From a virus: a stretch of 53,119 bases of DNA. Below, piece after piece: positions 20,425 to 50,891 of this stretch (positions are counted from its first letter, which is position 1; each line of letters starts with the position of its first letter). The notes beneath the pieces are model-generated. The model saw nothing but the letters and a program-made list of their open reading frames with translations. It searched no databases and had not been told where the DNA came from. The DNA is taken from IMG/VR virus record IMGVR_UViG_3300044608_001820, positions 1-53,119 of that record. One strand, written 5' to 3'. The translations under genes were made by a program, and so were the position numbers.

Positions 20425-20426
20425 TC

Positions 20427-20838: not shown

Positions 20839-20851
20839 TCTAAGACTAACA

Positions 20852-22204: not shown

Positions 22205-22231
22205 TCGCTATAATTGATAAGCGATATTCAA

Positions 22232-22263: not shown

Positions 22264-22337
22264 GCCTCCATAGCTCAGCTGGATAGAGCAACTGTTTTGT
22301 AAACAGTAGGTCGCGGGTTCAAGTCCTGCTGGGGGCT
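22264..22337 (+). tRNA. tRNA-Thr(UGU)
   Basis: Acceptor GCCTCCA/TGGGGGC, stem ACTGT/ACAGT, loop TTTGTAA (anticodon UGU), T-arm GCGGG-TTCAAGT-CCTGC, discriminator T. Stands apart from the main array. Confidence 0.92.
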
Positions 22338-29468: not shown

Positions 29469-29482
29469 TATAATAGATGCGA
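29447..29482 (+). promoter_or_regulatory. Sigma70-like promoter of the polymerase gene
   Basis: TTTACA (29447-29452), 16 bases, TATAAT (29469-29474). An ATG at 29477 would fall before the transcription start, which favours the start at 29510 for the polymerase. Confidence 0.5.
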
Positions 29483-29509
29483 ACAAAAACTTATCAGATG
29501 GTAACGTCT

Positions 29510-32407
29510 ATGAACTTGAATGAGCAAGGTTATCCTGTACTCAACAACGATCTCCATAAAAAGCTCTTCGGTTCCGCCAGCCGCCCCGTACCTAAGAGCT
29601 TCATGCTCGAACGGTCGAGGCGGCTTCTTAGTAGGTTTGACATCCCCGTGCCGGTAGACTATCCGGATGGGATGTATGATGGTGACTTGCCATTTCCTGA
29701 ACTAATTGGTGGAAACATTGAGTCTCACTTTGAGGCTATGGCTGGGGAGTTCGTCGATGACTATAAGTCATACGCTGACCAATTCTCCACCGCAAAACTT
29801 CCAAAGATCCCTGGCTACGATGATTTCATCTTTCAGCCTGGGTGGACTCGCTATACGTTCGTAAACAACAAGTGGGTCACTGAGAAAGTCCCGTATCCTC
29901 TCGAAAAAGCATTCACGTTCGATACGGAGACCTTCGTTACTGGAGGCGCATTCCCGGTTATTGGCACTGCCTTGTCGGAGGAAGCATCGTACATTTGGCT
30001 AGCCGCCGAGATGTGTGATCCCTCTCTGCCTGTCGATGAATGGACTCAACATGACCTTATCCCACTTGGTGATGGGAACTTCATTGTCGGTCATAACATT
30101 TCCTATGACCGCGTTCGCGCTCGTGACGGCTACACGCTTGATAAAACGGAGCCTGAGAATTTCTACTTCGACACGCTCTCGGCGCACATTGCTGTCTCGG
30201 GTCTTGCGTCGGGTCAACGGTGGCTTTACGTCCTTGCCGGGAAGGATCCAGACTCCCTCACGGAGGAGGAAAAGAAGAAGCTCCGCTTCCGTCCACGATG
30301 GGCAACCGAGGGTGCGACAAACTCCCTAGTGAATGTGTATAACTTCCACGTCGCGGCCGTGCGTGAGTACTTTGGCGAGGAAGTCCACTTCATGGAGGAT
30401 GCTGATAAGGACATCCGGGATGTGTTCGTGAAGGCAACCGAGATGCATCAGTTGGCTAATCGCCGTGATCTTCTCGAGTACGCAATGCTTGACGCCTTCT
30501 ACACATCCGAGTTGTTCCAGGCTCTGTGGCGTAAGTACCTCGAGTCAACTCCTTCGAAGGTAGCACTCGCGGGCCACATGTTCCTCAATGGATCACGTAT
30601 TCCTGTCTCCACGGATTGGCCGCAATGGATCGATCAGGTGGAGAAAGTCTTCGCGAAGTACAACCGTGAGATGTCTGACATCTGTCACGAGTTGATTCAG
30701 AAGTACGTGGATGAATGGCGTGTAGAGCTCGAGAAGGATATTGCCGCCGTACAATCTGCACTGGATGGCGAAGACCGAGCTGACATCATCGCCGCAGCCG
30801 GACTCGAGAAGAAGAAAGTCGTGAAGATCACTGACGTTCTCAAAGGTCTGGATAAGAACGCGGTGTTTAATTGGACTCATCACGCTGATGCCTGGGTTCG
30901 GAAGGATCCATGGATGAGCCAACTTGATTGGACTCCACGTGGATATGCCGGGAAGTATGCCTACATGCCAAAGTGGGCGAGTAAGTATCTGGCGGATACT
31001 TCAGAGCGGATCACGACCAAAGCCCAGGTCTCTCACCTTCTGCTTAAGCTGAAGTGGGAAGACACACCGATTCAACTCACAAAGAGCAAGGGCTGGTGCT
31101 TCCGCACCGAGGAAGGAAAGCTGGAGAAGATTCCGCACCCGAAAGGCAATGGCGACAATGTTGGTATTCTCCTGTCGAAAGACTTTCTAGTCGATATGGA
31201 GAATGGTCGTCTGAGCAGTGACCTTCCCGAGGCGCGAAGGGCGCTTGATATTGCAAATGCCACATCGTATTGGACGTCAGTGCGTAAGCGTGTTCATGAC
31301 CGAATCTTCATGGATGTGGAAAATCCGTACGGGAAGAGTTGGTATATGATGATGCCGGAGATCATCGCTCACGGCACGGTGACTCGCCGAACTGTGGAGA
31401 GCCTGATGGTTACGATGTGTTCTACCAAGAAGCATCGGATTGGCACCGAGCTTAAGACTCGTATTCAGTGCCCTCCTGGCTGGAAGATCGTTGGTGCTGA
31501 CTTCGACGGTCAGGAACTTCAGATCGCTAGCATCTACGCGGATGCCTGGGAGGGAGGATTCATCGGTGCATCGCCAATGGCTCACACGGTGCTGTCCGGA
31601 TCGAAGGAAAAGGGAACGGATGCCCACACCAAGCTCGCTAAGGCAATTAACACCAACCGTGATGTTGCTAAGGGCGTGGGCTTCGCAATGCTATACGGCG
31701 CGGGTGTTCGCACCATCGCTAATACCATCAAGAAGACTTACAAGGACCGGTCCGCAGCTGAACTCCGTCAGTTCGGTAACCGAGCGCTCTCATTCAAGAA
31801 GGGTCAGAAGACTCCCGATGGTCACTATGAGGGAGGGAGTGACAGCGGCTGCTATAACTACATGGAAGGTATCGCCCTTCGCACGAAGATTCCTACGCTT
31901 CCCTGTCTCGGAACCAAGATCTCAACTGCACTCCGCCCTGCGGCAGTAGGCGATGACTTCCACACCGGTCGGATCAACTGGACTATTCAATCGTCCGGCG
32001 CTGAGATGCTTGCCGTGATCCTTACCGCCTCACATTGGTTGGCTCGTAGGTTCAAGATTCCCGCTCAGTTCATCCTCTCGATTCACGACGAGACATGGTT
32101 CATGGTCCCGGAGAAGTACGCTGAGAGCTTTGCTGTATTATTCCAGATGGCTCACCTCTACTCCTGGGCACGCTTCCAAGCAAGCGTAAAGATGAATGAT
32201 GTGCCGCTAAGCCGGGCATTCTTCTCTTCCGTGGCAATCGATGATCGGCTTCGTAAATCAGTTCGAGAGTGTACTGTGACACCCTCAAATCCCGAGGGTG
32301 CCGATGAACCCGACGGCAATGAGTATTCGATGGCTCAAATGGCGGAGCTCGGGTGGGTGAAGAAGCTTAAGACTCGAGCGGATATGGTTGCGAAGGGGTT
32401 GCTTTGA
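29510..32407 (+). CDS. Pol gamma-like family A DNA polymerase (965 aa)
   Basis: Replicative polymerase with 3'-5' exonuclease. Exo I FDTE lies near residue 138, Exo II GHNISYDR near 196, Exo III YAMLDAFYT near 324. Palm motif A reads VGADFDGQEL (near 662) and motif B KGVGFAMLYGAG. Motif C and the end read INWTIQSSGAEML, LSIHDE (near 858), MNDVPLSRAFFSSVAIDDRLRK and TPSNPEG. The last blocks match mitochondrial Pol gamma nearly word for word (NWxxQSS, SIHDE, NDxPxSxAFFSxVxID, TPSNPxG) rather than E. coli Pol I or T7. Such a polymerase was reported in cyanomyovirus S-TIM5 (from memory). Confidence 0.93.
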   Translation: MNLNEQGYPVLNNDLHKKLFGSASRPVPKSFMLERSRRLLSRFDIPVPVDYPDGMYDGDLPFPELIGGNIESHFEAMAGEFVDDYKSYADQFSTAKLPKIPGYDDFIFQPGWTRYTFVNNKWVTEKVPYPLEKAFTFDTETFVTGGAFPVIGTALSEEASYIWLAAEMCDPSLPVDEWTQHDLIPLGDGNFIVGHNISYDRVRARDGYTLDKTEPENFYFDTLSAHIAVSGLASGQRWLYVLAGKDPDSLTEEEKKKLRFRPRWATEGATNSLVNVYNFHVAAVREYFGEEVHFMEDADKDIRDVFVKATEMHQLANRRDLLEYAMLDAFYTSELFQALWRKYLESTPSKVALAGHMFLNGSRIPVSTDWPQWIDQVEKVFAKYNREMSDICHELIQKYVDEWRVELEKDIAAVQSALDGEDRADIIAAAGLEKKKVVKITDVLKGLDKNAVFNWTHHADAWVRKDPWMSQLDWTPRGYAGKYAYMPKWASKYLADTSERITTKAQVSHLLLKLKWEDTPIQLTKSKGWCFRTEEGKLEKIPHPKGNGDNVGILLSKDFLVDMENGRLSSDLPEARRALDIANATSYWTSVRKRVHDRIFMDVENPYGKSWYMMMPEIIAHGTVTRRTVESLMVTMCSTKKHRIGTELKTRIQCPPGWKIVGADFDGQELQIASIYADAWEGGFIGASPMAHTVLSGSKEKGTDAHTKLAKAINTNRDVAKGVGFAMLYGAGVRTIANTIKKTYKDRSAAELRQFGNRALSFKKGQKTPDGHYEGGSDSGCYNYMEGIALRTKIPTLPCLGTKISTALRPAAVGDDFHTGRINWTIQSSGAEMLAVILTASHWLARRFKIPAQFILSIHDETWFMVPEKYAESFAVLFQMAHLYSWARFQASVKMNDVPLSRAFFSSVAIDDRLRKSVRECTVTPSNPEGADEPDGNEYSMAQMAELGWVKKLKTRADMVAKGLL

Positions 32408-33337: not shown

Positions 33338-33552
33338 TGCCATTTCCTATGCCACGCGATCCTAACTTCATGCTTGAATACTGTCGAGAGTGGGTGGATG
33401 ACGCCAACTATCGATATGATCACGGAATGCGATCGATGGCACAGGAAAGTATACGAACGGCGGCACAACTATATGTTCAGTTGCCGCCGGGATTTTCTGA
33501 TTTAGAGTTTGAAAAGTATTACGAGGAAACACTCAAGAAGGTTTACGGATGA
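33337..33552 (+). CDS. Small hypothetical protein (71 aa)
   Basis: Helical, aromatic-rich, unrecognised. Sits between kinase and thymidylate synthase with overlaps on both sides, so it is co-translated with the nucleotide genes. Confidence 0.55.
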   Translation: MPFPMPRDPNFMLEYCREWVDDANYRYDHGMRSMAQESIRTAAQLYVQLPPGFSDLEFEKYYEETLKKVYG

Positions 33553-34457
33553 GACTACAAAGTTTGGAAGCAAAAACACAGCTTGGTCACGTTCTTCATG
33601 CCGGTGATTACGCGATTAAGCATGATAATTGGGACTATATCTACAGCGAGTATCTCTATGAAATCATGACTAACGGCGAGAAGTTCGTCGGTAGGAATGG
33701 CGAGACTCGCGCGCTCTTCGGTTGTTCAGCGAAGGTTGATCTTCGTGTTGGATTCCCGCTCACCCGCCTTCGGAAGATGCCATGGATGAATATCCTTCGG
33801 GAACTAAAGTTTGACATCGGGTTCAACACCAACGTCGAAGCTCTTGGTCCCGCTAAGCACTTCTGGGATTTTCTCGCCGATGAGAACGGTGAGCTGGGTG
33901 CCTCCGCTTACTGTCGGCAGTGGCGCCAGTGGCCACCATCATCACCGGGATACGAGATGCCTAACGAGCGACTCGTTACTGACAGGTCTATCGATCAGCT
34001 CAAAGATGTGATCGTCAAACTCATTGAGCAACCTAACACCCGTCAAGGCACTGTCATCACTCACAATCCGACTGCGATCGATCCAGCGTGCCCACCCTGT
34101 CACATTGCGATGCAGTTTGCCCCATCGGTGGATGGCTGGTTGGATCTGATGGTGCCCGCCCGGTCTAACGATATGGTTGTCGGGTTCCCGCTGGATATTG
34201 CCCGCTACGCCTTGATTCTCAAGATTGTAGCGATGAGAAGCGGTAAGGCTGCTCGTTTCGTGTACATGCCAAGCGCTAACTCGCATATCTACCAAAATTG
34301 CTATGATATTGTCGATGAGATGCTTGACCGAGAGCCTAAGCCTGAGTGTCAAGTTCGCCTCACCCGTTGCCCTGGAAGCCTCTCAGATGTAAATCTTGAG
34401 GACTTTGAGCTAACTGATTACGACCCGCATCCCGCGATTAAGATCGCAGTTAACTAA
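33549..34457 (+). CDS. thyA: Thymidylate synthase, ThyA family (302 aa)
   Basis: Makes dTMP from dUMP with methylene-tetrahydrofolate. The active-site block DPACPPCHIAMQF holds the catalytic Cys near 184. The dUMP-binding blocks ARSNDMVVGFPLDIARYALI and SNSHIYQNCYD match RSxDxxLGxPFNIxxY and HxYxNH. The N-terminal part (RNGETRALFGCSAKVDLRVGFPLTRLRKM) replaces the standard RTGxxxxSxFG block and is divergent, as in other phage ThyA-like enzymes (some act on dCMP), so hydroxymethylation cannot be excluded. Confidence 0.85.
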   Translation: MRLQSLEAKTQLGHVLHAGDYAIKHDNWDYIYSEYLYEIMTNGEKFVGRNGETRALFGCSAKVDLRVGFPLTRLRKMPWMNILRELKFDIGFNTNVEALGPAKHFWDFLADENGELGASAYCRQWRQWPPSSPGYEMPNERLVTDRSIDQLKDVIVKLIEQPNTRQGTVITHNPTAIDPACPPCHIAMQFAPSVDGWLDLMVPARSNDMVVGFPLDIARYALILKIVAMRSGKAARFVYMPSANSHIYQNCYDIVDEMLDREPKPECQVRLTRCPGSLSDVNLEDFELTDYDPHPAIKIAVN

Positions 34458-36214: not shown

Positions 36215-39200
36215 ATGGCTACTATTTCCCTTGGAGGCGCCCGCGGCGGCGCGCCGGGAACATTTATCTATGAGTCAGCGATCGCGTCTCGCGCGTCTGT
36301 CGCCAGCTTCAACACGATCTACATGGTTGTTGAGGCACCTCAAGAGACATCTGTTGCCCGTTTCCCATATAACCGCCCCATCTTCGTGGGCAGTCTCAAC
36401 GACTACGTGAACCTAATCGGTACCATTCCTGCTGGTGGTGCTGAGCTTGATTCATATTTTGGCGTTAAGGCTTTCTTCCAGCAGTGCACTGTCGGCGACC
36501 TTCGTGTTGTTCGCGTTGGCACTCCTTCCAATATTGTCCAGGTCGCTTTCGATCCGAGCGCCAATAAGGACAATGGCGTGGCTGCTCCTAGCCAACTGAG
36601 CAAAGGCGATCAAGTCTACATCAAGCTCGTCATCAATGGCATCCAGCTTGGTGTTAAGAACAGCGCTGGTGCATGGCTTGGTGTGCCCGTCATCATCCCT
36701 GTTGACTACGTATCCGGCAACACCACTAACAATCTCGAGATCTCTGGCGCTATTCGCGACGCTGTGCGCGACGCCATCGAGGCTAACAGCGACATTTCCG
36801 CTAGCGTTTACGTGCGCTATGAGGGTGAAGGCACCTCCGGCTGCAGTGACTGTGCATTCCTGTACCTGACAGGTCGCGTATTCAATGCCCCTGTGGAAGT
36901 TGTCAACTCCAACGAAGTCACTGGCGCTCAGTTCATTCTGGCTGCTGCCGGTTATTCGATCGAGAACATCTCCGAATCCGACGAGACCGTTTACGACTGG
37001 ATCCAGTGCGTTCGCACCGCATTCGAAGATCCCCGTCTTCCTCAGGGATACCTGATTGCTCCCGCTGGCTTCGGTAAGTTCAGCCAGTCTGAGCGCGTGA
37101 ACCTCGGTCAGTCGATGGAGGAAGTGTGCTCGGATCAGAACCACAAGTGGATGGCTCTGGTTGATTGCGGTCCGTTTGACGTGACCGATATCACCACATA
37201 TAGCCAGTTCACCCCTGCTAATCCTTCAAATGGATTCTCAGAAGGCGGACTCTACCTTGTGGATAACGTGATCTATGAGTGGACTGATAACAATCCACTT
37301 AGCTTCACATCTGCTAACTATGACGCCGCAAGCGCTCTCAACTCGGTGAATGCGTCTCTGGCTGACGGATCACGCCGCGCGCTCAAGGATGATCAACTGG
37401 TCTCCTGCAACTCGGGCGTCAATACTGGCACCGATGTGGTGACACTGGCTAGTGATTGGCCTGTTAGCGCACTTCCCTCGGGAACTCTGGTTAGTGTTGA
37501 GCTGTTCCAAAACACTCCGCTGCCAACCGCTCCTCTTTACACTGACGTTGCCACTGGCGTAACTAACGAGCCTCTGATTGGTTCGTTCTACGTGATCGCT
37601 AGCGACATCGACGGAACTCTCGCTGCCAATCAGATCCGTCTGGCTACAAGCAGCACCCGCGCAGCTATCAATCAAGCTGTGAACTTCACCACCGCTGGTA
37701 CTCCCCAAGGTGGCGGACTTCTGGTTCTGTCCTACGCCGATCCCGCTTGGGAATTCGAGGTGGAAATCAAGGGCAAGATCAGCAGCCTGATCGAAGCCAA
37801 TGGTGGCGTGAATGCGGTGTCCTTCAACACCCTGCACCTGCCTGGCACGCTGCAATCTCCCACCACCCAGCATGACTTCAAGGGTCTGGTTCGTCAGCTG
37901 ACTGATCCTTCCCAATCGATTGTCAAGGGCGGTCTGACTCTGCAGTACTTCAATGCTGCCGACGTCAACACTGGTACCAACGCCATCACTGTGATCGGTC
38001 ACGGTTACAACACTGGCGATGCTATCAACTACTATCTGCTTCCTTCCGACGGTGCTGCCGCTCCGGGCACTCTGGCTAGCGGAACTCAGTACTTCGTCAT
38101 CAAAGTTGACGACAACACCATTCAGCTGGCTTCGTCTCTCGCCAACGCTAACGCTGGCACTGAGCTGACAATCGGAACCGCTGGTACTGACTCCTCGACT
38201 GTCAAGAATCCTCAGGGTGGTGCTGCTCAGTCGGTACTGACAACTGGTGGTGATTGCCTGGTCTTCTCCTCGGCTCACGGTGTGGCCACCGCTGATAAGA
38301 TCTACTTTGACGGTAGCATTGTCACCGCATCTTCCACCGTATTTAGCGGAACTTCTGCAACTGCAACCTCCGCTTTCTACGCCCAGCAGGTTGACCTCAA
38401 CTTCTTCCGCCTCGCTCGTTCGTCTTCGGACCTGGCTTCCAACGCTTTCGTTGACTTCCCCAGCTCCGCTATCACCACTTCAACTGCTCGCCGCTTCTAT
38501 AAGAAGTATAGCGTGGCTGTCGATGGTGGTCAGTACAGCGACTCCGGTCTGATCCGTTACATTCGCGGTCGTAAGTACCAGCTGGATGTGACTCTGGCTA
38601 ATGCCGCTGTGAAGGACGAAGCTGGCGTAAGCATTGCATCAGGTTCTAACGATCCTTACGGCGTTGCTTACACCGACGACATCAGCTCCGACCTGCGACT
38701 GTCTTACAGCGCTGCTCCTGTTGGTGTTCCCGTGTGGCAAGTTGCCTCAGGCGACATCACCGCCCTGTCGGATGAGATCGCTATCTCCAGCCACGGTTAT
38801 CTGACTGGCGATGAGGTGGTGATCAACACCGCAACTGGCGCTGTTCTCGCACCTGGTCTCTCGGATAACACAGTCTACTACGTGATCGCTCTCACCGCGA
38901 ACACGCTGCAGTTGGCTGAAACCGCCGCCGATGCTGTTGCTGCAAACCCGGTCGACATCACCGGTACCGGCACCAATAACGGCGCAGGCGTGGAGTTCAC
39001 TCTGACCTCTACTTCCAGCCCGTACACCTGGCAGTATACCGAGGACGCTGACGCTTATCCTCTGAATCCTGCACAGGACTTCTCCGGCGAGAACAACTTC
39101 TACTGTGTGCCTCTGAGCGCCGGTGCCCAGGCTAACAATGCCCGCGGTGCTTACGCTCACCCAGTCCTGCAAGTTGGTCAAGCTTACACCACCCTGTATG

Positions 39201-40120
39201 CTGGCTTCACCGAGATCGAGTACATCGAGCCCTCAGGCGACACTCCGACCACTTTGTGGAACTTCGACGCTATCACCTCCGGTGATCTTGTGAGCGAAGC
39301 ACTCCGCGGTGTGAATAACGCTGGTATCCCTCAGATGGTTGCCATCGAGAAGGGTATCGATAGCCATGCTCGCCTCTTCGCCGAGTCACAGTTCTACAGC
39401 ACAACCCAAGGATTCCTGGCTTACTACGCTCCTTACATCAGAAATGATGCAGGAGTCTTCACTCAGCCTACTCCTTACGTTGCTGGTCTTGCTATTCGTC
39501 GCTATCGCGATGAGGCTGGTGGATTCAAGCTTCCTCCGGCTGGAGCTAAGTATAGCCTCGCTGGTGCTCGCGGTTGCGAAATCGCCATCACAAGCGCTCA
39601 GCAGGAAGTCAGCACTCCTCAGGGTCTGAACGCTCTGCGTCAGCTTCCTGGCTACAGCAGCACTGATCCCGACACCGGTGAGACCTACGGTCCCGTGTTC
39701 GTGTGGGGTTCACGTACTCGCGTCAATCGCGGAAATTCCGAGCAGGCTCTGTACCAGTTCGTGAACACCCGTGTGATCCTGAACGTGATCTTCGGTACGC
39801 TGCGTAGCGCCTTCGATGGTCAGATCTTCGATGTTATCGATGGTCGCGCAGTTACCTTCAACCAGATCCGTGCAATCGCCTACAACACCCTGTACGAGAG
39901 CTTCTACGTCCCCGGTGCACTGTTCGGTTCTACTCCGGCTGAAGCCTTCGAGGTTGTTGTCGACGAGCGTAACAACCCGCCGGGTGCTCTGGAGAACGGC
40001 TTCATCAACGTGAAGGTGTTCGTGGTTCCAGTTCCAACTCTCGAGCGTATCGAAGTGGATCTCATCCGCGTTGGTATTGGTGGAATCCAGGACGCCCTCC
40101 AAGCTTCCGGAATCTTCTGA
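36215..40120 (+). CDS. Contractile tail sheath protein with inserted repeats (1301 aa)
   Basis: Contracts to drive the tail tube into the host. The N-terminus GGARGGAPGTFIYESA and the block RPIFVGSLNDYVNLIG with LDSYFGVKAFFQQ are sheath-like. The end AYNTLYESFYVPGALFGSTPAEAFEVVVDERNNPP and VPVPTLERIEVDLIRVGIG is the conserved sheath C-terminus. It is about twice the usual length. The excess (about 400-1000) contains repeated beta domains of the type HGYxTGDxVxY...GTxYYVIxVDxNTIQLA (near bases 37998, 38266 and 38788), probably displayed on the outside. GAAGGAG precedes the ATG. Confidence 0.87.
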   Translation: MATISLGGARGGAPGTFIYESAIASRASVASFNTIYMVVEAPQETSVARFPYNRPIFVGSLNDYVNLIGTIPAGGAELDSYFGVKAFFQQCTVGDLRVVRVGTPSNIVQVAFDPSANKDNGVAAPSQLSKGDQVYIKLVINGIQLGVKNSAGAWLGVPVIIPVDYVSGNTTNNLEISGAIRDAVRDAIEANSDISASVYVRYEGEGTSGCSDCAFLYLTGRVFNAPVEVVNSNEVTGAQFILAAAGYSIENISESDETVYDWIQCVRTAFEDPRLPQGYLIAPAGFGKFSQSERVNLGQSMEEVCSDQNHKWMALVDCGPFDVTDITTYSQFTPANPSNGFSEGGLYLVDNVIYEWTDNNPLSFTSANYDAASALNSVNASLADGSRRALKDDQLVSCNSGVNTGTDVVTLASDWPVSALPSGTLVSVELFQNTPLPTAPLYTDVATGVTNEPLIGSFYVIASDIDGTLAANQIRLATSSTRAAINQAVNFTTAGTPQGGGLLVLSYADPAWEFEVEIKGKISSLIEANGGVNAVSFNTLHLPGTLQSPTTQHDFKGLVRQLTDPSQSIVKGGLTLQYFNAADVNTGTNAITVIGHGYNTGDAINYYLLPSDGAAAPGTLASGTQYFVIKVDDNTIQLASSLANANAGTELTIGTAGTDSSTVKNPQGGAAQSVLTTGGDCLVFSSAHGVATADKIYFDGSIVTASSTVFSGTSATATSAFYAQQVDLNFFRLARSSSDLASNAFVDFPSSAITTSTARRFYKKYSVAVDGGQYSDSGLIRYIRGRKYQLDVTLANAAVKDEAGVSIASGSNDPYGVAYTDDISSDLRLSYSAAPVGVPVWQVASGDITALSDEIAISSHGYLTGDEVVINTATGAVLAPGLSDNTVYYVIALTANTLQLAETAADAVAANPVDITGTGTNNGAGVEFTLTSTSSPYTWQYTEDADAYPLNPAQDFSGENNFYCVPLSAGAQANNARGAYAHPVLQVGQAYTTLYAGFTEIEYIEPSGDTPTTLWNFDAITSGDLVSEALRGVNNAGIPQMVAIEKGIDSHARLFAESQFYSTTQGFLAYYAPYIRNDAGVFTQPTPYVAGLAIRRYRDEAGGFKLPPAGAKYSLAGARGCEIAITSAQQEVSTPQGLNALRQLPGYSSTDPDTGETYGPVFVWGSRTRVNRGNSEQALYQFVNTRVILNVIFGTLRSAFDGQIFDVIDGRAVTFNQIRAIAYNTLYESFYVPGALFGSTPAEAFEVVVDERNNPPGALENGFINVKVFVVPVPTLERIEVDLIRVGIGGIQDALQASGIF

Positions 40121-40138
40121 TAGTTACGGCGATCAAAC

Positions 40139-40438
40139 ATGGCCAAAAAACGCCTGGCATTCGATGTCGAGGAAGATCTTCATTCCCGTCTAAAACAATT
40201 GGCTGCAGAGCAGGGAGTCCTTCTTGGGGCTTTCTGCTCCAGCCTTATCGAAACTGGACTGGAAGTGAATGGTTTAACCAGCACTTCCGTTGAAATCGAT
40301 CCCAGCTCATACGCTAACCTTCCGCTCGACGCGTTACGCACGGAAGCTAATAGGATCTCAACCGCAAGACCAAAGAACTGGGAGACAGCGGTTAGGCGCA
40401 TTAACGCAGAAATTGTCAAAAGGTACGTCGCTCGATGA
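40139..40438 (+). CDS. Ribbon-helix-helix-like protein (99 aa)
   Basis: Starts MAKKRLAFDVEEDLHSRLKQLAAEQGVLLGAFCSSLIETGL, the strand-helix-helix pattern of MetJ/Arc-type DNA binders. The C-terminal half is unassigned. Placed between the sheath and baseplate genes, it may regulate late genes or be structural. Confidence 0.55.
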   Translation: MAKKRLAFDVEEDLHSRLKQLAAEQGVLLGAFCSSLIETGLEVNGLTSTSVEIDPSSYANLPLDALRTEANRISTARPKNWETAVRRINAEIVKRYVAR

Positions 40439-40788
40439 CCAGCGTTCGCGGGCTTCTTTATCCGCTACAGGTTAGCAACGGTCAATTAGTGCTAGCCGAA
40501 GATGAGGCGATTGTTGAGCAACAGATAATTTCAGTGCTCGAGACACGACCATTTGAGCGCATCATGCGGGCTGATTACGGATTGCCCGATAATATCTTTG
40601 AGACAATGAATCCCGCCGCTATCGACTCTAAGATATCCGAAGCGATTTTAGAGCAAGTCGGCGGCATTGATGATCTATCCGTCAAAGGATCTTGGACGGG
40701 TGGGGATAACGGCATCTATGCCGTGAACATTTTGTATTCGGTGCGGGGAACACTTCAACCTCCGCTTTCACTCTCCCTGGTGGTCTGA
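40435..40788 (+). CDS. Baseplate wedge protein, gp25-like (117 aa)
   Basis: GPW/gp25 family. RGLLYPLQVSNGQLVLAEDEAIVEQQIISVLETRPFERIMRADYGL fits the pattern L-x-T-x-x-G/F-E-R-x-M-R-x-D-(F/Y)-G of the wedge protein that seeds the sheath at the baseplate. ATGA overlap before, one-base overlap with the portal gene after. Confidence 0.85.
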   Translation: MTSVRGLLYPLQVSNGQLVLAEDEAIVEQQIISVLETRPFERIMRADYGLPDNIFETMNPAAIDSKISEAILEQVGGIDDLSVKGSWTGGDNGIYAVNILYSVRGTLQPPLSLSLVV

Positions 40789-42275
40789 TGGCAAAGAGAT
40801 TCGATATTCCGCCAATTCCCAAGGGGGATATTGCTCAATACGCGACAAACCCGTACGCAAGACAGACGATCTACGGATACTATCCGGGACTCTTTAACGA
40901 CCAGTCACCGAATAATCTTGTAGTTCGTCCGAACGATGACCTCCTAATCCAAAAGGGCGGCATCTCGGCCCTCATCGTTTATCAGCGTCTGCTGTTTGAT
41001 CCAAACGTTCAAGCAGCTTGGATGAAGGTGATCCAGGAAATTACATCGCGTGACTTAGTTGTTGATCCCGCTTCCGATCTTGCTGGCGATATTGCGATAA
41101 AGGATTTCGTTGAAGAACAACTAAAAGATCTCCCCATGGATGAGATCTTCCGCGCGATGCTTGAGGCATACATCGTCGGATTCTCAGTTGGTGAGATCAT
41201 GTGGCGCCGCACGCCGGCCGGTGTGAAGGCTTACGATGTGCGACCAAGAGACCCTCGGCGCTTTCTCTTCGCGGTAGACGAGAAGGCGGACATGGGCTTC
41301 TCGATGAAGATGGTGACGTACGCCAACACTCTCGTCGGTGAGGACCTTCCCGCTCGTAAGTTTATTGTGTTCCGTTACTGGACACAGTCCAACGGTGACC
41401 CGTACGGTTGTGGATTAGGCCGGACACTCTACCCGATCGTTAAGTTTAAGCGCCGTGCGCTTGAGTCGCAGTTGCTTTATAGCGACCGCTACGCTAATCC
41501 CACGGCAGTCGCCAAAGCTCCACTTGCGGCAACAACGCAAGAAATTGACACTCTCTACAATCACCTCGTCAATCTCTCTCAGGAAACCGCACTCATCCTC
41601 CCAGAGGGATATGACCTTGAGTTCGTGAATCCCCAGGGATCACCTGACACATTCACTCAATTGCGTGAGTCACTGATCCGCGAAATCAATATGCTTATTT
41701 CCGGCGAAGATGAAACCGGAAATGCCGACGCGGGATCTCGTGCATCCTCTGAAGTTGCTCTTCAAGTTCGAGAAGTGCGGGCAAAAGAACTTGCCGAACT
41801 ACTCTGTGAGACATTAAACGAAACTCTTGTCCGCTGGATCGTTGATCTAAACTACGGCACGAATGTTGTCGCTCCTAAGGTGAGACGTGACTTCCGAGTC
41901 GAGGAAGGTAGCAAACTCACGATGAGTGACGTAAGTATTCTCATCTCTCAAGTAGGATATCGTCCGACCAAAGAGTGGATCGAGACAACATACAAAGTGG
42001 AGCTCGAAGAGGGTGAGGAGGTTCAGCCTGGAGCTGAAATGGCAGTGCCAACTGAGGAAGTAGCACCAGAGGCAGAAGCAGCAAGCGAGGAGATGACTGA
42101 TGAAGATCTTGATGCTGAGATTGCGGAACTCGAAGGTCAATTAGAATCAACTCCCCCCGAAGAGGAAGACGATGATGCTGAATTAGATGAACTACTTTCT
42201 GATTTAGAACAATCGCCGACTGCTGAGGCTGAGACCGAAGACGAACAGCTCAGAAAAATAATTGATGAACTTTGA
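40788..42275 (+). CDS. Portal protein, DUF935 / Mu gp29-like (495 aa)
   Basis: Forms the dodecameric DNA gate of the head. Family signs: YQRLLFDPNVQAAWMKVIQEITSRDLVVDP, AMLEAYIVGFSVGEIMWRR, FRYWTQSNGDPYGCGLGRTLYPIVKFKRRAL and LISGEDETGNADAGSRASSEVALQVREVRAKELAE. The last 85 residues are highly acidic. The stop is followed by the GGGTAAAA motif. Confidence 0.85.
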   Translation: MAKRFDIPPIPKGDIAQYATNPYARQTIYGYYPGLFNDQSPNNLVVRPNDDLLIQKGGISALIVYQRLLFDPNVQAAWMKVIQEITSRDLVVDPASDLAGDIAIKDFVEEQLKDLPMDEIFRAMLEAYIVGFSVGEIMWRRTPAGVKAYDVRPRDPRRFLFAVDEKADMGFSMKMVTYANTLVGEDLPARKFIVFRYWTQSNGDPYGCGLGRTLYPIVKFKRRALESQLLYSDRYANPTAVAKAPLAATTQEIDTLYNHLVNLSQETALILPEGYDLEFVNPQGSPDTFTQLRESLIREINMLISGEDETGNADAGSRASSEVALQVREVRAKELAELLCETLNETLVRWIVDLNYGTNVVAPKVRRDFRVEEGSKLTMSDVSILISQVGYRPTKEWIETTYKVELEEGEEVQPGAEMAVPTEEVAPEAEAASEEMTDEDLDAEIAELEGQLESTPPEEEDDDAELDELLSDLEQSPTAEAETEDEQLRKIIDEL

Positions 42276-42284
42276 CCTACAACC

Positions 42285-42292
42285 GGGTAAAA
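42285..42292 (+). promoter_or_regulatory. GGGTAAAA motif, candidate late promoter
   Basis: GGGTAAAA ten bases after the portal stop and 35 bases before the protease ATG. Confidence 0.4.
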
Positions 42293-42319
42293 CCTTAGGG
42301 GCTTCCCAGCTTGATTAAA

Positions 42320-44461
42320 ATGATTAAGGAAGTACACATTTTTAAGGCTGGGAAACAAACCTCAGCCCAGGGCATCACGAGAGAATTCACTAAAAACGAT
42401 CTTCAGCAAATCGTGGATTCCTACCGACCTGAAGTTCATGAGGCGCCAATCCGCATCGGTCATGAAGACAACGATAAAGTTCCTTCATGGGGGTGGGTCA
42501 AGGGAGTCAAAGTGAAAGGCGATGAGCTCTTCGCGGAGATTGATTTCTCTCCGCTAGCAGAGGAGTACATCAAGAATGGTCTCTACAAAAAAGTTAGCGC
42601 ATCGTTCTACTCTCCTGACTCAAAAATCAATCCGGAGCCGGGCAAGTGGTCGCTCCGTCACGTTGCTCTATTAGGAGCCCAACCACCTGCAGTTAAAGGA
42701 CTAAAAGGCTTCGCCTACGAAGAGAACTCTGACGGAGTCCTTGACTTCGCAGTAACTCTCACTCCTGATCAAGTGTTCGATGAGGAGCTTGGTCCCACTC
42801 TCAAGCGTGATCTTGGTCCGCTTGAGATCCTTAAAGAAAAACTCGATGAGGCACGCTCTCAGATGATCGAAGAAGAAAAGGGCGCTGAGCAACAGCTCGA
42901 AGCTCCCCAAATTGAAGAAGTAACCGCCGAAGAGGAACAATTCGGCGAAGGCAAAGTGTCCCACATGGGCATGATGGCCAAGACTTCTAAAAAGTCAATG
43001 TCCGGTGGCAAGATGGGCCACGAGGGTGATGACGAGGATGAGGAGGATGAGGATTCCGTAAAGTCTGCCGAAATGGAAGGCAAGAATCTCCCCGAGCCTC
43101 TGAAGAAGCAAGCCGCCAAAAAGATGGCTAAGTCTAAAGGTATTTCCGAAGACGAGGCTATGGGCGAGAAGGACATGAACTACATGTCTTGCGGATCTAA
43201 AGGCAAGAAAATGAACTACGAAGAAACTGATTCCACCGAGCACGGTGAAGCTACCGCCGAGCACGACGGAAAGGTCAAGGGTCTGAAGGCTCCCGCTCCA
43301 AAGGGAATGTCTGATATGTCTCCTGAGACTGTCGACGGTGAAGGTCCCGAGGCTTCTAAAGTCAAGAAGAATCCAAAGTCGGGCGCTTGTGATCCCGAGT
43401 GCGAGGATGATGACAAGAAGTACGAAGAGCCTACTTTCGAAGCCAACAAGAAGAAGCGCGGTACCGATCACCTGAACGCTTCCGATGTCGGAGCCAAGGA
43501 AACCGAAGGCGGTCCTGGCGGGCTCGTTCGTACTCGTTCCACCTCAAAGGGCATCAACCTCGGTTACGAGGAAGCCGACGAGGAGGACCTCGAGGATGAT
43601 GATGAGCAGCATGTCGAGACCGACAACAACAAGTACGTCGATAAGGCCACTGAGCCCAAGCGCGGTAAGGATGGTCTGAAGGGACGTAAGGCTCAAGATC
43701 CTTACAACGACCAGTCAGGTCGTGGCGAACTCGGCAAAGCCGGAGTCGAAGGCGAAACTGACCGTGGCATGAAGGGAACTGCCCCTGAGATCAAGGGATT
43801 CCCCAACGGTAAGGGTCAGGATTCTGCCAAGGGTGGCGACGGCGGCGAGATGTCCAAGAACTACGAGGACTCCTACAAGGGTCAATCCTCTGGTCAGGAT
43901 GAGGACCGCAAGATGACCGGCAAGCATGCTGAGATTCAGGGCTATCCCGGTAAGTACATGACTCTCGGGTCACCCAAGGGTGGCGGCAAGCAGATCAAGG
44001 GCGGTAAAGTCCGCGTGATGGAGATCAACCACTCCGAGAGCGATCCTATCGCCCAGATGATGGCACGTCTCGAGGAGCTGGAAGCCGCTAACGCTCGTCT
44101 TCGTGAGCAGGCCGAGTACGCTGAGCGTCAAGCAAATCGTATGCGTCTCGAGCAATTTGCTGAGGGACTGTACGAGTCAGGCAAACTTACCGATGCGATC
44201 GTCGCTCAAGACGATCTGGTTGAGTATCTCGAGGGACTCGAGTATGGCACTCTGGAGTTTGCTGAGGGTGAAACCGCAGCTACTCCGCTGATGAAGATCC
44301 TGGAGGGTCTGCCTTCTCAAGTATGCTACTCCGAAGTAGCTGGTGGCGAGCCTGTCGTTCGTGAAGAGGACCTTAATCCTCACGAGCGTGCAGTGAAACT
44401 CTCCAAAGAGGAGAACATCGACTACACCGAAGCCCTGAAGCAAGTTCTCTTCTCCGCCTGA
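42320..44461 (+). CDS. Mu I-like head maturation protease with scaffold domain (713 aa)
   Basis: First 140 residues match Mu-like protease I: EVHEAPIRIGHEDNDKVPSWGWVKGVKVKGDELFAEIDF, then YKKVSASFYSPDS and WSLRHVALLGAQPPAVKGL. Residues about 200-560 are low-complexity Glu, Asp, Lys and Gly, unlike any fold. The end (AQMMARLEELEAANARLREQAEYAERQ) is a scaffold-type coiled coil finishing in EENIDYTEALKQVL. Scaffold and protease are fused as in Mu. I use the ATG at 42320; a TTG at 42311 is possible. Confidence 0.8.
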   Translation: MIKEVHIFKAGKQTSAQGITREFTKNDLQQIVDSYRPEVHEAPIRIGHEDNDKVPSWGWVKGVKVKGDELFAEIDFSPLAEEYIKNGLYKKVSASFYSPDSKINPEPGKWSLRHVALLGAQPPAVKGLKGFAYEENSDGVLDFAVTLTPDQVFDEELGPTLKRDLGPLEILKEKLDEARSQMIEEEKGAEQQLEAPQIEEVTAEEEQFGEGKVSHMGMMAKTSKKSMSGGKMGHEGDDEDEEDEDSVKSAEMEGKNLPEPLKKQAAKKMAKSKGISEDEAMGEKDMNYMSCGSKGKKMNYEETDSTEHGEATAEHDGKVKGLKAPAPKGMSDMSPETVDGEGPEASKVKKNPKSGACDPECEDDDKKYEEPTFEANKKKRGTDHLNASDVGAKETEGGPGGLVRTRSTSKGINLGYEEADEEDLEDDDEQHVETDNNKYVDKATEPKRGKDGLKGRKAQDPYNDQSGRGELGKAGVEGETDRGMKGTAPEIKGFPNGKGQDSAKGGDGGEMSKNYEDSYKGQSSGQDEDRKMTGKHAEIQGYPGKYMTLGSPKGGGKQIKGGKVRVMEINHSESDPIAQMMARLEELEAANARLREQAEYAERQANRMRLEQFAEGLYESGKLTDAIVAQDDLVEYLEGLEYGTLEFAEGETAATPLMKILEGLPSQVCYSEVAGGEPVVREEDLNPHERAVKLSKEENIDYTEALKQVLFSA

Positions 44462-44465
44462 TCCT

Positions 44466-45179
44466 GTGGAACTTCTGACCTTCATCGGTCAGGCGGCTAG
44501 GCGCAAAAGCGATTATATCGAACGCGCCGAGAATCTGGCCGATTCAGCCAAGACCCTCGAAAAACTCGAGGAAGAGATGAGCGGGAGAGCCCAAGCACTC
44601 TCCCGTAAACTCGCAAACACCAAGATCACCCTCGCTGAATTTAAGCGTGCAGCGGCGGAGGACACTTTAATCTCGTCCCTCGCCGCAACTCACCTCGGAC
44701 GTGGCAAACGAACGGAATTATCCGACGCAGCTTACGCCGAGGCAATGGGTCAGATGCAGTATCTTTGGAGGTTCTTCGAAGATATTGAGAAAGCTTTGTC
44801 CGAGGGTAAAATTGAGTACGGTAAGGTAGATTTCGCCACAGCGGACGAGATCGAAGACGATATCCTTGGGATCATTCCAGAGGACAGTCTCGATGCCAAA
44901 CCGGGCAAGTCAATTCCAGCGAGTTGGTCCGGGGTTCAAACAAGATTAGACCGGTATCTTGTCACCCCGGCTTACCGTTGGTTCAACGCGGGAGAGATGG
45001 CCCGCCGTCAAGAATTAGGCGCAAGCGAGATGCGACGCATCGCCAGACGAGATAAGCGAGTCTGTCGTGATTGCCTCGACTATGACGCCGCGGGATGGCA
45101 ACCAATTGGTGGCCTCCCCGTACCAGGAACCCGTTGCAGGTGCCTAGATCGCTGTAGGTGCCGCTTAGAATATCGGTAA
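44466..45179 (+). CDS. Minor head protein, Mu gpF-like (237 aa)
   Basis: The C-terminal block CRDCLDYDAAGWQPIGGLPVPGTRCRC is the gpF/SPP1 gp7 signature (C-x2-C...G...P...C-R-C), with a helical N-terminal part. Present in few copies in the head and needed for packaging or assembly. GTG start five bases after the protease stop. Confidence 0.75.
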   Translation: MELLTFIGQAARRKSDYIERAENLADSAKTLEKLEEEMSGRAQALSRKLANTKITLAEFKRAAAEDTLISSLAATHLGRGKRTELSDAAYAEAMGQMQYLWRFFEDIEKALSEGKIEYGKVDFATADEIEDDILGIIPEDSLDAKPGKSIPASWSGVQTRLDRYLVTPAYRWFNAGEMARRQELGASEMRRIARRDKRVCRDCLDYDAAGWQPIGGLPVPGTRCRCLDRCRCRLEYR

Positions 45180-45180
45180 C

Positions 45181-45188
45181 GGGTAAAT
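45181..45188 (+). promoter_or_regulatory. GGGTAAAT motif, candidate late promoter
   Basis: One-base variant of the GGGTAAAA motif directly after the minor head gene, 64 bases before the next ATG. A perfect CGCTTC/GAAGCG hairpin (45201-45218) lies between them. Confidence 0.35.
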
Positions 45189-45244
45189 CAGTTACAAGAA
45201 CGCTTCAATCTCGAAGCGATTGAATTCCATTAGCTCTATACAAA

Positions 45245-45691
45245 ATGGCAGCTCCTGTATACGGCAAGCAGTACATCCGCTTCGCCGAAACCTTCCGTGT
45301 CGCTGAAGGCACCGTCGTAAACCAGTTCCGCGTCGTTGAACTGACTGGCGCCCCTGGAGATCATCCTCCCCTGCTCGTTGAGCAGTCCAATGGTGGTGCC
45401 GCCATCGGCGTGGCTCAGTACACCGTGAACGATAACGTGCCTCCTACCGGTTTCGCTACCGATGAAGTGCGTCTTCTGACCGTGGCTACTTCCGGCCTCC
45501 TGCTGGTTGACGCCGACGGCACTCTGGGCACCAATGACATCGGTACCGCTCTGGAAGTGATTGCCGGTGGTATCGCTTCTGACGCCGGCACTGTCGGCTC
45601 CACCGCTGTGACCGTGAACGGCACCACTCCGATCATTCGTGACGTGCTGAACATTGGCGGTGAGCAATATGCTCTCGTGAGCTTCAGCTGA
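45245..45691 (+). CDS. Head decoration-like protein (148 aa)
   Basis: Small beta-rich Gly-, Val- and Thr-rich protein (FRVVELTGAPGDHPPLLVEQ, GVAQYTVNDNV, LLTVATSGLLLVDADG) of the DUF2190-like type found before capsid genes, where it binds and strengthens the capsid. Position directly upstream of the major capsid gene agrees. Confidence 0.65.
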   Translation: MAAPVYGKQYIRFAETFRVAEGTVVNQFRVVELTGAPGDHPPLLVEQSNGGAAIGVAQYTVNDNVPPTGFATDEVRLLTVATSGLLLVDADGTLGTNDIGTALEVIAGGIASDAGTVGSTAVTVNGTTPIIRDVLNIGGEQYALVSFS

Positions 45692-45712
45692 TCTAATCTT
45701 ATACGTAAACTT

Positions 45713-45752
45713 CGATCTTGGCTTCGGTCACTTCCGTGTAAGTCCAAGATCG
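45713..45752 (+). other. Hairpin before the major capsid gene
   Basis: Perfect 9-bp stem CGATCTTGG / CCAAGATCG with a 22-base loop and no T-run. Probably RNA stabilisation or processing that favours the capsid message. Confidence 0.5.
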
Positions 45753-45786
45753 TCTCTAACCTTCTGCAGAAGGAGACTTAAAGTCC

Positions 45787-46833
45787 ATGATGAATCTAAG
45801 GGACACCTACGGTGGTGTCGATCCTATTCTGACTACACTGGCTCAGGGCTTCATGCTGCCCGAGACCAGCATTGCTAACTTCATCGCTCCCGTGGTGGAC
45901 ACCCCCACTCGGGCTGGTAAGATCCTGCGCTTCGGCAAGGAAGCTTTTGCTATCCAAGACTATCGTCGCGCATACGGATCCAACATTCCTGCTGTTCAGA
46001 GCCGCTTCGATACCGACGCTTACGCTCTGCAACAAGAAGTGATCGCTTGGGAACTTCCCGAAGAAGTGATCGAGAACGCTGGTGAAGGTCCTGCTCAGGT
46101 TGATCTGCGTGCTATTGAGACACGCAACGCCATGAGCCGCCTGATGAACAGCTATGAGGTGAACGTTGCTGACGCTGTGAGCACCGTCGCCAACTACGAA
46201 GCTGTGAGCGCCACGAGCCTGGGTCTTGGCTACGCTGACTGGACCGCTTATGCTGCCGATGCTACTGCTCTCGGTATCGCTGACGGTGGCAACCCTTGGG
46301 GCACCCCTACCAACAACCCGATCGTTGACGTTCTGAACTGGAAGCGTGCCGTTTCCAACCAGATCGGTATTCGTCCCAATAGCGCTGTTATCGGTACTGC
46401 CGTATTCGATAGCCTGCTGACCAACCCTGCAATCCTGGAGCGTATCCAGTTCACCACCGCCGACTCGATCGACGTGGATGTGCTGGCACGTTACTTCGGT
46501 CTTGAGCGCGGTATCCGCGTGGCTGAGGGTCGTAGACTGGCTGACAATGGCGAACTGCTGCCCGTGTTCCCTGAGAACGGTGTGCTGCTGTTCTACAGCC
46601 CGCTGTCTGCTTCTGACTCGGTGATGCCTGCCGGTGGCGCTAATGCTGCTACACCTGCCTTCGCTTACACCTACCAGCTGACCGGCACTCCTGCTGTACG
46701 TCCTGAGTACTACATCCGTGAGCGTCGTGTGGTCCGTGCTGAGATCACCGTTGAGCGCGTGATCAATATCACTGGTCTGGGTGCTACTGGTGCTTTCGGT
46801 TCTGGCTTCTACATCGACGACGTATTCGCCTGA
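45787..46833 (+). CDS. Major capsid protein, gpE-like (348 aa)
   Basis: HK97-fold shell protein of the lambda gpE / phage E family: ETSIANFIAPVVDTPTRAGKILRFGKEAF near the start, DLRAIETRNAMSRLMNSYEVNVA, PNSAVIGTAVFDSLLTNPAILERI and the C-terminal YYIRERRVVRAEITVERVIN. Strongly biased codons, as expected for the most abundant protein. AGAAGGAGAC lies upstream of the ATG. Confidence 0.85.
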   Translation: MMNLRDTYGGVDPILTTLAQGFMLPETSIANFIAPVVDTPTRAGKILRFGKEAFAIQDYRRAYGSNIPAVQSRFDTDAYALQQEVIAWELPEEVIENAGEGPAQVDLRAIETRNAMSRLMNSYEVNVADAVSTVANYEAVSATSLGLGYADWTAYAADATALGIADGGNPWGTPTNNPIVDVLNWKRAVSNQIGIRPNSAVIGTAVFDSLLTNPAILERIQFTTADSIDVDVLARYFGLERGIRVAEGRRLADNGELLPVFPENGVLLFYSPLSASDSVMPAGGANAATPAFAYTYQLTGTPAVRPEYYIRERRVVRAEITVERVINITGLGATGAFGSGFYIDDVFA

Positions 46834-46868
46834 TCCTTCTTAAATCTTTTTCTTAAGGAGGACCTCCG

Positions 46869-47291
46869 ATGCCTGTTATCACACCAATCCCAAAGTCAGC
46901 GTTTATCGTTACCATCTCTGGAATGGAAACGATTTGGACTCAGTTTTCTGGGATTTCGGATACGGCGGAAAGTGGTCAGTACGCTAATGGAACTGGGAAC
47001 CGCATCTATAAAGTTGTTGGTCCCCGCTCTATTGACGATGTAACTGTCACAGCTCCGTACGATCCTGCATTGGCTCACACAATTGAGCAAATTTGGGCAA
47101 ACTACAACTGCGAATTTATCACCATCACCGTTCAACCAACTGCTTGCGATGGCGACACAGCTAATAGCACTGCTTACGTGCTTAGCGGTTGCCAACTGCA
47201 GCAGCTGACTGTCGCTGAGATGGATCGCGAATCTGGCGACGTTGGAACCATTGAGTTGGTCTTCACAGTCAACACTTGGAACTACGCCTGA
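46869..47291 (+). CDS. Tail tube protein-like (140 aa)
   Basis: FIVTISGMETIWTQFSGISDTAESGQYANGTGNRIYKVVGPRSIDDVTVTAPYDP resembles tube proteins of the T4 gp19 type (strand, G-x-W-x-x-F-S, then strands). AAGGAGG precedes the ATG and a strong terminator follows. Confidence 0.68.
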   Translation: MPVITPIPKSAFIVTISGMETIWTQFSGISDTAESGQYANGTGNRIYKVVGPRSIDDVTVTAPYDPALAHTIEQIWANYNCEFITITVQPTACDGDTANSTAYVLSGCQLQQLTVAEMDRESGDVGTIELVFTVNTWNYA

Positions 47292-47311
47292 TCAGTCGTA
47301 ATTATCCTATT

Positions 47312-47338
47312 AAGCCTCGCTTCGGCGGGGCTTTTTTA
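47312..47338 (+). terminator. Strong rho-independent terminator
   Basis: AAGCCTCGC-TTCG-GCGGGGCTT, a 9-bp stem with a UUCG tetraloop (one G-T pair), then a T-tract. Ends the capsid and tube messages. Confidence 0.92.
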
Positions 47339-47342
47339 TTGA

Positions 47343-47350
47343 GGGTAAAA
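47343..47350 (+). promoter_or_regulatory. GGGTAAAA motif, candidate late promoter
   Basis: GGGTAAAA four bases after the terminator T-tract and 37 bases before the ATG at 47380. Placed right after a terminator, it is the strongest case that the motif starts transcription. Confidence 0.5.
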
Positions 47351-47379
47351 TACACACAAGAAATCTAGCGCCGGAGTGC

Positions 47380-47811
47380 ATGGCGAAGACATTATTTGGG
47401 CCTGGAGTCATTGTAACGTCCCAGTGGCTCAACGGTGCACGTGAGATTAGTTTTGATGGAGCCGATGCTGATTGGCATTATGCGCCCATCAACGGAAATG
47501 ATATTCAACGCGGCGGCGATAACGGTCTAGACTCTGTTTACGTCACGCTTCAAACCGACCAGAGTTACGGATCCATTCCCGTCACTGGCCGCAAGAGCTT
47601 TATGGGCTTGGTGCAGTTTGGCGACCAAGTTAACACCAGTGGACTCAACGCTCCGCTGTCTTGGAATACGAATGCCAAGTTCAATCAAGGCGGATCACAA
47701 CAGAGCTTCTTAGTCAAGTACGCTCAGCTTGACTCTCCCGATCTCATCACGAAGGAGATCCTCAATGAGCGAATCAATAACTTCCCAGTTGTAGACGAAG
47801 GGTTCTTCTAA
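47380..47811 (+). CDS. Hypothetical virion protein (143 aa)
   Basis: Beta-rich (DSVYVTLQTDQSYGSIPVTGRKSFMGLVQFGDQV), not recognised. Its position between tube and baseplate genes and direct overlap with the baseplate J gene suggest a tail or baseplate part. Confidence 0.6.
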   Translation: MAKTLFGPGVIVTSQWLNGAREISFDGADADWHYAPINGNDIQRGGDNGLDSVYVTLQTDQSYGSIPVTGRKSFMGLVQFGDQVNTSGLNAPLSWNTNAKFNQGGSQQSFLVKYAQLDSPDLITKEILNERINNFPVVDEGFF

Positions 47812-50800: not shown

Positions 50801-50891
50801 CATCTCGGATCCCGCGCAACTGTCATATTCTCCGACTAGCACATTCGGATACGGTCCGATCAACTACGGCATTGGTACTCTGTCGCTATGA
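47811..50891 (+). CDS. Baseplate J / gp6-like wedge protein (1026 aa)
   Basis: The first 280 residues carry the baseplate J core: DPRNESELVAAAAQRVYEASGATINDFSSGSPVLALLEGQAFAQAELL, then RTGAGAVVEVEFSI and QDPELLQEVKERFFSLIRRRNPVSAEDWEDFF. The remaining 700 residues are an unusual long extension with a Cys-containing segment (CFLQAETCAEVSSGC, near 708-722). It cross-links the wedges of the baseplate. Confidence 0.82.
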   Translation: MPQYAPLPPIDLDPRNESELVAAAAQRVYEASGATINDFSSGSPVLALLEGQAFAQAELLAFANSFPESVLVEWIGPFLGAQRRTGAGAVVEVEFSITPTIQEFVIFPGFQVSTNPNLTGGQSISFVTTDLLRISPGEESGRVRAVALLRGSATNVPAGSIVNTVTSLAGVTGVINPEAAAGGQDPELLQEVKERFFSLIRRRNPVSAEDWEDFFSDALGPGTGVNVLPRRSEKDVYRYDTNFVESAPAVAFFIINPDGSPLTTAQRSSLQNLIRWALPTEFQGTVYSMEVDDVDISVDLLYDPNKPYAQDLRTFTETVRNNLFGILTPNAVFPVSYDPNVSDIEGALATSFPLTLGTTNQFIDPDIAQLNAYYTPRGLGSPSFTVVTPQAFETGATFQPGDVLVNATGSLPTYYPVLQAFTPVNANKSYYANINNLSFTLIRELAPGEYETGDVISVVNEIGASLHVALASFTYTGNRTLSNLIDAGLISAAKAFTEWSVGANIEARTQQGLYDPDIIAFQSGDLNTEVFEPRTPENVDLNRRAGYPIWVAKQNFVVEASTVDLGTAQQSGFVSTQRIEFELLLSEESYTAGQFVASPTPEQFLTGTISEDSCYIDRLQGVVRIYARVLTAFTFPALGDRSYKQVIDDLVAAGILQIIQVVDYIDCAGRPLFIDKSFRYQARFQLGEYVRYRPEGGFDAAQLEDCFLQAETCAEVSSGCKRLLEANLPLPRYFQALIDFTPATQDPGQMIEDGLLIEVAPEIFRYNYVVPSTSIPLNFSPSQLTQILLEQGAITNQSDLVAGQTLIILGPLNENLGTYFWSRLGWLTETGGIPTYRDLFRFAPKDAATFRNGSLLRQYEATEHVTPILDLEVYFDAGVFVRSERPETVKYYDSSYRYEDVIADITGSSQKFYRVERSFTPPDVIQTWAGEQPNTPRIEEVYGNLLKFVIRAQCDERVFSRLGAQVSANKLGVATVKITSKSNTEASYTYVWESTRYISDPAQLSYSPTSTFGYGPINYGIGTLSL

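Follow-up and report, generated by a model that had tools for sequence, protein, structure and literature searches.

Pol gamma-type DNA polymerases of cyanophages

DNA polymerases of the Pol gamma type have been published from the cyanophages A-HIS1 and A-HIS2 in 2011, S-TIM5 in 2012, S-CBWM1 in 2018 and Mic1 in 2020 (PMC7156551), and the 2020 work puts forward a shared ancestry with mitochondria (PMC7156551). Where the mitochondrial replicase came from has long been asked. The idea that animal Pol gamma came from a cyanophage was being discussed by 2014 (PMC3914683), and an origin of the animal mitochondrial replisome from one T-odd phage is still stated (PMC12230644). The window analysed here is a 53,119-base record of an uncultured virus, a fragment of about 53 kb. 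One of its genes very probably encodes the replicative Pol gamma-type polymerase of an uncultured cyanomyovirus related to S-CBWM1, placed in a large phage-only clade that is not the nearest relative of the mitochondrial enzymes. With the window, a broad branch of cyanophage Pol gammas gains one member.

Gene organization of the window

The genes that identify the virus are as follows.

8742..10727, + strand: DNA gyrase/topoisomerase IV subunit A-like protein (PF00521, E = 2.9e-109; 43% to S-CBWM1)
33549..34457, + strand: thymidylate synthase of the ThyA type, a nucleotide-metabolism gene downstream of the polymerase (PF00303, E = 1.1e-54)
36215..50891, + strand: contractile-tail structural block with sheath, portal, protease, capsid, tube and baseplate wedge genes

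The sheath, tube and baseplate genes of the window, together with those for portal, protease and capsid, identify the virus as a contractile-tailed myovirus. The structural block is collinear with that of S-CBWM1, with 64% identity in the capsid protein and 50% in the portal protein. S-CBWM1 also matches the window in the gyrA–polymerase order, its gyrA-like gene preceding the polymerase by about 2 kb, in the neck genes and in the protein encoded upstream of the polymerase. With S-TIM5, the window shares the polymerase and ThyA, along with a cytosine methyltransferase and structural proteins that are more distantly related. The first-pass annotation had linked the window to the S-TIM5 type of cyanomyovirus, but the polymerase is 50% identical to that of S-CBWM1 against 36% to the S-TIM5 group, the S-TIM5 enzymes form a separate clade and the gene order matches S-CBWM1. 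On sequence and gene order, the S-CBWM1 (Aokuangvirus-like) type is the better link, genus rank aside.

The window contains two possible auxiliary genes, a cytosine-C5 methyltransferase at 7197–8552 on the − strand, which is 60% identical to that of S-TIM5, and a peroxiredoxin-like gene at 22382–22924. The array of 31 tRNA genes at 16892–22337 on the + strand, which covers 19 amino acids with none found for Tyr, is a very large set for a phage. A permuted, phage-encoded tmRNA lies at 20588–20788 on the + strand (Rfam RF04321, 52.3 bits), and its reading frame at 20747–20788 encodes NNIVRFERVAVAA followed by a stop codon, a tag that presumably resembles cyanobacterial tmRNA tags. The tag peptide given by ARAGORN was dropped because the permuted Rfam model was preferred. 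A tmRNA is also present in S-CBWM1 (72.4 bits) and in contig G010 (57.5 bits).

Domain composition and catalytic motifs

The polymerase gene and its parts are as follows, residues being numbered from the first codon of the ORF.

29477..32407, + strand: Pol gamma-type family A DNA polymerase, an ORF of 976 residues with an alternative start, Met12, at 29510
29684..30538, + strand: 3'-5' exonuclease domain, residues 70–354 (PF18136, E = 7.5e-59)
29909..29950, + strand: Exo I, AFTFDTETFVTGGA, residues 145–158 with D149 and E151 (alignment with yeast and mouse Pol gamma)
30074..30124, + strand: Exo II, GNFIVGHNISYDRVRAR, residues 200–216 with D211 (same alignment)
30464..30514, + strand: Exo III, RDLLEYAMLDAFYTSEL, residues 330–346 with Y335 and D339 (same alignment)
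30734..30871, + strand: helical insertion in the spacer (thumb), about residues 420–465, about 45 residues, in the window clade only
31436..32146, + strand: polymerase domain DNA_pol_A, residues 654–890 (PF00476, E = 2.4e-11)
31484..31552, + strand: motif A, KIVGADFDGQELQIASIYADAWE, residues 670–692 with catalytic D675 (alignment)
31658..31711, + strand: motif B, RDVAKGVGFAMLYGAGVR, residues 728–745, in which F736 corresponds to human Y951 and Y740 to the Y955 position (alignment)
31976..31996, + strand: NWTIQSS, residues 834–840 (alignment)
32075..32092, + strand: motif C, LSIHDE, residues 867–872 with catalytic D871 (alignment)
32192..32299, + strand: Pol gamma C-terminal block, MNDVPLSRAFFSSVAIDD to TPSNPEG, residues 906–941 (alignment)

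The start given by the first-pass annotation, 29510, is the in-frame Met12 of this ORF. Since the S-CBWM1 homologue starts at the position that aligns with Met12 and residues 1–9 have low confidence in the AlphaFold2 model, 29510 may well be the true start. The product combines in one chain an N-terminal 3'-5' proofreading exonuclease, a spacer or thumb and a C-terminal family A polymerase. PF18136, the mitochondrial-type exonuclease domain, scores 199.6 bits against a Pfam cutoff of 26.7, and each of the 38 relatives in the alignment likewise has both PF18136 and PF00476. In Exo I, II and III and in polymerase motifs A, B and C, all catalytic residues align with those of yeast Mip1 and mouse Pol gamma, in agreement with the earlier claim that the three exonuclease motifs are intact. 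Four motifs quoted with that claim are likewise located in the ORF, MNDVPLSRAFFSSVAIDD at residues 906–923 and TPSNPEG at residues 935–941 being the two parts of the C-terminal block and NWTIQSS and LSIHDE the other two. As read from its sequence, the polymerase is complete, with the exonuclease domain and every catalytic motif present. Polymerase and proofreading activities are predicted; D675 and D871 would perform two-metal catalysis, and the enzyme would copy the phage genome.

The Tyr residue seen at the human Y951 position in yeast and mammals is absent from the window enzyme, which has Phe-736. Phe also occupies this position in S-CBWM1 and the A-HIS phages, and a Tyr there does not define the phage Pol gamma branch. 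The Tyr/Phe difference among phages has been noted earlier for A-HIS and S-CBWM1 (PMC7156551). The Y951F substitution in the human enzyme retains polymerase activity and increases discrimination between dCTP and ddCTP 2,400-fold (PMC5702650). By analogy, Phe-736 would give stronger dideoxynucleotide discrimination than in human Pol gamma.

Spacer region and accessory subunit

The span from D339 to W500 has 158–161 residues in the window enzyme and its relatives L012, L013, L020, L026 and L031, compared with 107–122 in other phages. AlphaFold2 models the inserted residues as helices with pLDDT values of 83–94. Together with Phe-736 at the human Tyr951 position, this helical spacer insertion of 45 residues, confined to the window clade, is what is specific to the window enzyme. 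T7 polymerase and animal Pol gamma have docking insertions in the same general region. An additional role of residues 420–465 as the dock for a processivity factor, as an independent counterpart of the thioredoxin-binding loop of T7 or the metazoan accessory-interacting region, would fit their confident helical modelling and restriction to one clade, but this is unlikely because the insertion precedes the DPWLxxLDW block and the animal one follows it, no partner was found, and the extension may be neutral.

The accessory-interacting region, which the first-pass annotation had singled out for structure prediction, is missing from the window enzyme in the alignment with mouse Pol gamma. The segment from W500 to P553 has 53 residues, compared with 178 in mouse, and lacks the stretch after DPWLxxLDW that is the place of the animal accessory-interacting determinant; yeast Mip1 is short there too. 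The metazoan intrinsic-processivity insertion is also missing in the alignment. The HGTP-anticodon domain PF03129, the hallmark of POLG2, was found in none of nine Pol gamma phage records. In nematodes, the accessory-interacting region has been lost together with the accessory subunit (PMC4419789). The accessory determinant and the POLG2 partner belong to the metazoan form only and are not a requirement of the family. Since both the metazoan accessory region and the processivity insertion are absent, the window enzyme is probably a one-chain proofreading replicase, and, like yeast Mip1, it would need no POLG2-like subunit. Single-chain phage Pol gammas that have no metazoan insertions are useful simple models of the human enzyme. 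Motifs A and B are set apart by long insertions of about 26–57 residues in several distinct phage Pol gamma lineages (L134, L088, L090, L098, L096, L094, S-CBWM1, A-HIS1 and A-HIS2).

Position among phage and mitochondrial Pol gammas

At least 183 relatives of the window polymerase are present in the virus collection, as found with one pattern set. Identity to the A-HIS1 and A-HIS2 enzymes is about 31–34% and to Mic1 about 31–33%. A full-length tree of 35 rows places the window with L012 (87%), L031, L026 and L020 and puts S-CBWM1 in the same clade, separate from the S-TIM5 and A-HIS clades. Mic1 joins yeast and mouse in this tree with support of 100/99, its row being short by about 40 residues beside its intron; these residues were restored in the outgroup tree and the AU tests. 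The eukaryotes in the trees are two lineages, yeast and mouse, whose sequences were copied from PDB alignments and miss short unaligned stretches. Consistently, Mic1 is 40.7% identical to mouse and 38.2% to yeast, close to the 42.9% between yeast and mouse.

In AU tests on the outgroup-rooted set, joining the window clade to the eukaryotes is rejected (p = 0.0007) and joining the window and S-TIM5 clades together to the eukaryotes is weakly rejected (p = 0.032). Joining Mic1 to the eukaryotes is at least as good as the free tree (p = 0.53), and a single clade of all phages is not rejected (p = 0.34). These results do not show that the eukaryotes are nested within the phages, and they indicate that the window lineage is not the sister of mitochondria. 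In these trees and alignments, the phage enzyme closest to mitochondria is that of Mic1 and not that of the window clade. A scan of viral sequences with conserved Mic1/yeast stretches for a Pol gamma more mitochondria-like than Mic1 returned Mic1-like contigs only. Two scans of bacterial and archaeal genome contigs with different patterns found no relative, although such pattern scans are limited and leave absence unproved.

It is highly improbable that the window polymerase represents the phage lineage that gave Pol gamma to mitochondria and so records a direct transfer; although it is a true Pol gamma homologue with related phages widespread in the virus collection, its identity of 31–32% to mouse or yeast falls short of that of Mic1, and both the 100/99 grouping of Mic1 with the eukaryotes and the rejection of a window–eukaryote clade oppose such a role. 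The proposed bearing of the gene on the origin of the mitochondrial replicase stands insofar as the homology is real, but it is weak, as the mitochondrial enzymes group with Mic1 and cyanophage Pol gammas had already been published.

Separation from T7-like and Pol I polymerases

A phmmer search of the PDB returns Pol gamma chains with E-values of 1e-101 to 2e-107, and the next polymerase is a Pol I with an E-value of 0.23. A profile built from six phage proteins retrieves yeast Mip1 at 5e-198 and the human and mouse enzymes at about 1e-172, compared with 7.6e-13 for Pol I. Together with the PF18136 match, these scores exclude chance similarity. The AlphaFold2 model of the polymerase, built with 38 sequences, has a mean pLDDT of 85.9 and a pTM of 0.83. 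All 36 of its best Foldseek matches in the PDB are human, mouse or yeast Pol gamma, the best being human (E = 1.5e-54), and TM-scores normalized to the query are mostly 0.73–0.78 for Pol gamma, compared with 0.31–0.36, at E-values of about 1e-10, for Pol I, T7 polymerase and Pol theta.

In the outgroup maximum-likelihood tree, computed from 329 columns of the polymerase domain in 29 rows and with the root within the Pol gamma clade left unplaced, Pol gamma together with the window and the phages is separated from the T7-like and Pol I rows with support of 100/100, and forcing the window clade to join the T7-like rows is rejected in the AU test (p = 2e-6). All family A polymerases have motifs A, B and C in common, but the reading that this enzyme is T7-like or a Pol I and matches Pol gamma in just a few blocks is practically untenable: the similarity is full-length and includes the Pol gamma-specific exonuclease domain, and the fold ranking, the tree and the AU test all oppose that reading. 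Classification as a T7 gp5-like enzyme was also discarded, there being no grouping with T7 and no gp4-type helicase or T7-type RNA polymerase in the relatives. The alignments, trees and predicted structure together establish the domain content, the catalytic residues, the fold and the monophyly with yeast and mouse Pol gamma. The first-pass annotation was right that the enzyme is Pol gamma-like and not of bacterial or T7 type, and it overstated the phage affiliation and the evolutionary weight.

Replisome context

A DnaB_C helicase of the Twinkle/T7 gp4 type was found in none of ten Pol gamma virus contigs and none of four Pol gamma isolate genomes, with T7 as a positive control. Similarly, no T7-type RNA polymerase was found in the Pol gamma-bearing records searched, the T7 control again being positive. 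A DUF5906 protein is present in 10 of 14 records, including all four isolates, and is not present in T7. The three contigs that have Pol gamma but no DUF5906 protein are probably fragments. The three DUF5906 proteins tested belong to one 'DNA primase' family in PHROGs, and we take DUF5906 to be the helicase part of NrS-1-like primase-polymerases (SF3). Since no sequence relative of the DUF5906 primase was found in the PDB, its SF3 assignment comes from the Pfam domain.

No DUF5906 gene was found in the window fragment as far as scanned, and the relative L012 (149,878 bases) has one. Since the 53 kb fragment in the window includes no primase/helicase gene and misses some other replication genes, we infer its replisome from the relatives, in which the polymerase would pair with a DUF5906-type primase/helicase encoded elsewhere in the genome. 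It is possible, if somewhat doubtful, that the replisome of Pol gamma cyanophages is a distinct one, with a DUF5906 primase/helicase, probably of SF3, and with neither Twinkle/gp4 nor a T7-type RNA polymerase, so that, if the donor belonged to the Mic1 branch, Pol gamma and Twinkle/POLRMT would have separate phage sources, and for the polymerase the 'T-odd phage package' origin of the animal mitochondrial replisome would be wrong. If this pattern holds, Pol gamma phages did not pass Twinkle and POLRMT to mitochondria in one package. A limited literature search found no earlier mention of the absence of Twinkle and T7 RNA polymerase from Pol gamma phages.

Unusual polymerase genes in relatives

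In the relative L020 (7906–11675), Pol gamma is encoded by two ORFs about 850 nt apart, the exonuclease/spacer part followed by the polymerase part. An intron was rejected as the cause of this split, Rfam having found none between the halves. Since a terminator-like hairpin also follows the first half, L020 Pol gamma may be a natural two-subunit enzyme. The Mic1 polymerase (L006, 7992–10968) is broken inside motif A, directly after GADVDS, and the polymerases of L323–L325 are likewise split. Motif C reads HDS, not HDE, in the S-TIM5-type relatives L003, L132, L232, L234 and L236. In L296 (4034–7003), the Pol gamma ORF apparently continues at its extreme C-terminus into a double-psi beta-barrel (RlpA-like, DPBB_1); this Pfam hint of a Pol gamma–lipoprotein fusion looks like a run-on into a neighbouring gene or an assembly effect, although it could be a fusion.

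Comparison with known systems

The Pol gamma of S-CBWM1 (gp77, Aokuangvirus) resembles the window enzyme in its 50% full-length identity, domain order, motif B Phe and synteny, and differs in an insertion of its own of 36 residues between motifs A and B and in missing the spacer insertion of the window. S-TIM5 and S-TIM54 (Aurunvirus) are also myoviruses with a Pol gamma-type enzyme and with ThyA and cytosine methyltransferase homologues, but their polymerases are 36% identical, form a separate clade and have Tyr in motif B and HDS in motif C, where the window has HDE. The Acaryochloris phages A-HIS1 and A-HIS2, which were the first phage examples of the family and of which A-HIS1 has a DUF5906 primase, differ in being siphoviruses, in forming a separate clade and in their long insertion between motifs A and B. 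The Microcystis phage Mic1 is likewise a cyanophage with a polymerase of the Pol gamma family, but among phage enzymes this one comes closest to yeast and mouse Pol gamma, and an intron within motif A interrupts its gene. Yeast Mip1 and mammalian POLG share with the window enzyme the fold, the exonuclease, motifs A to C and the C-terminal block, whereas identity is 31–32%, the metazoan insertions are absent from the window enzyme and Phe replaces human Tyr951. In this comparison, Mic1 and not the window branch stands next to mitochondria, and the rest of the mitochondrial set was not found in the Pol gamma phages.
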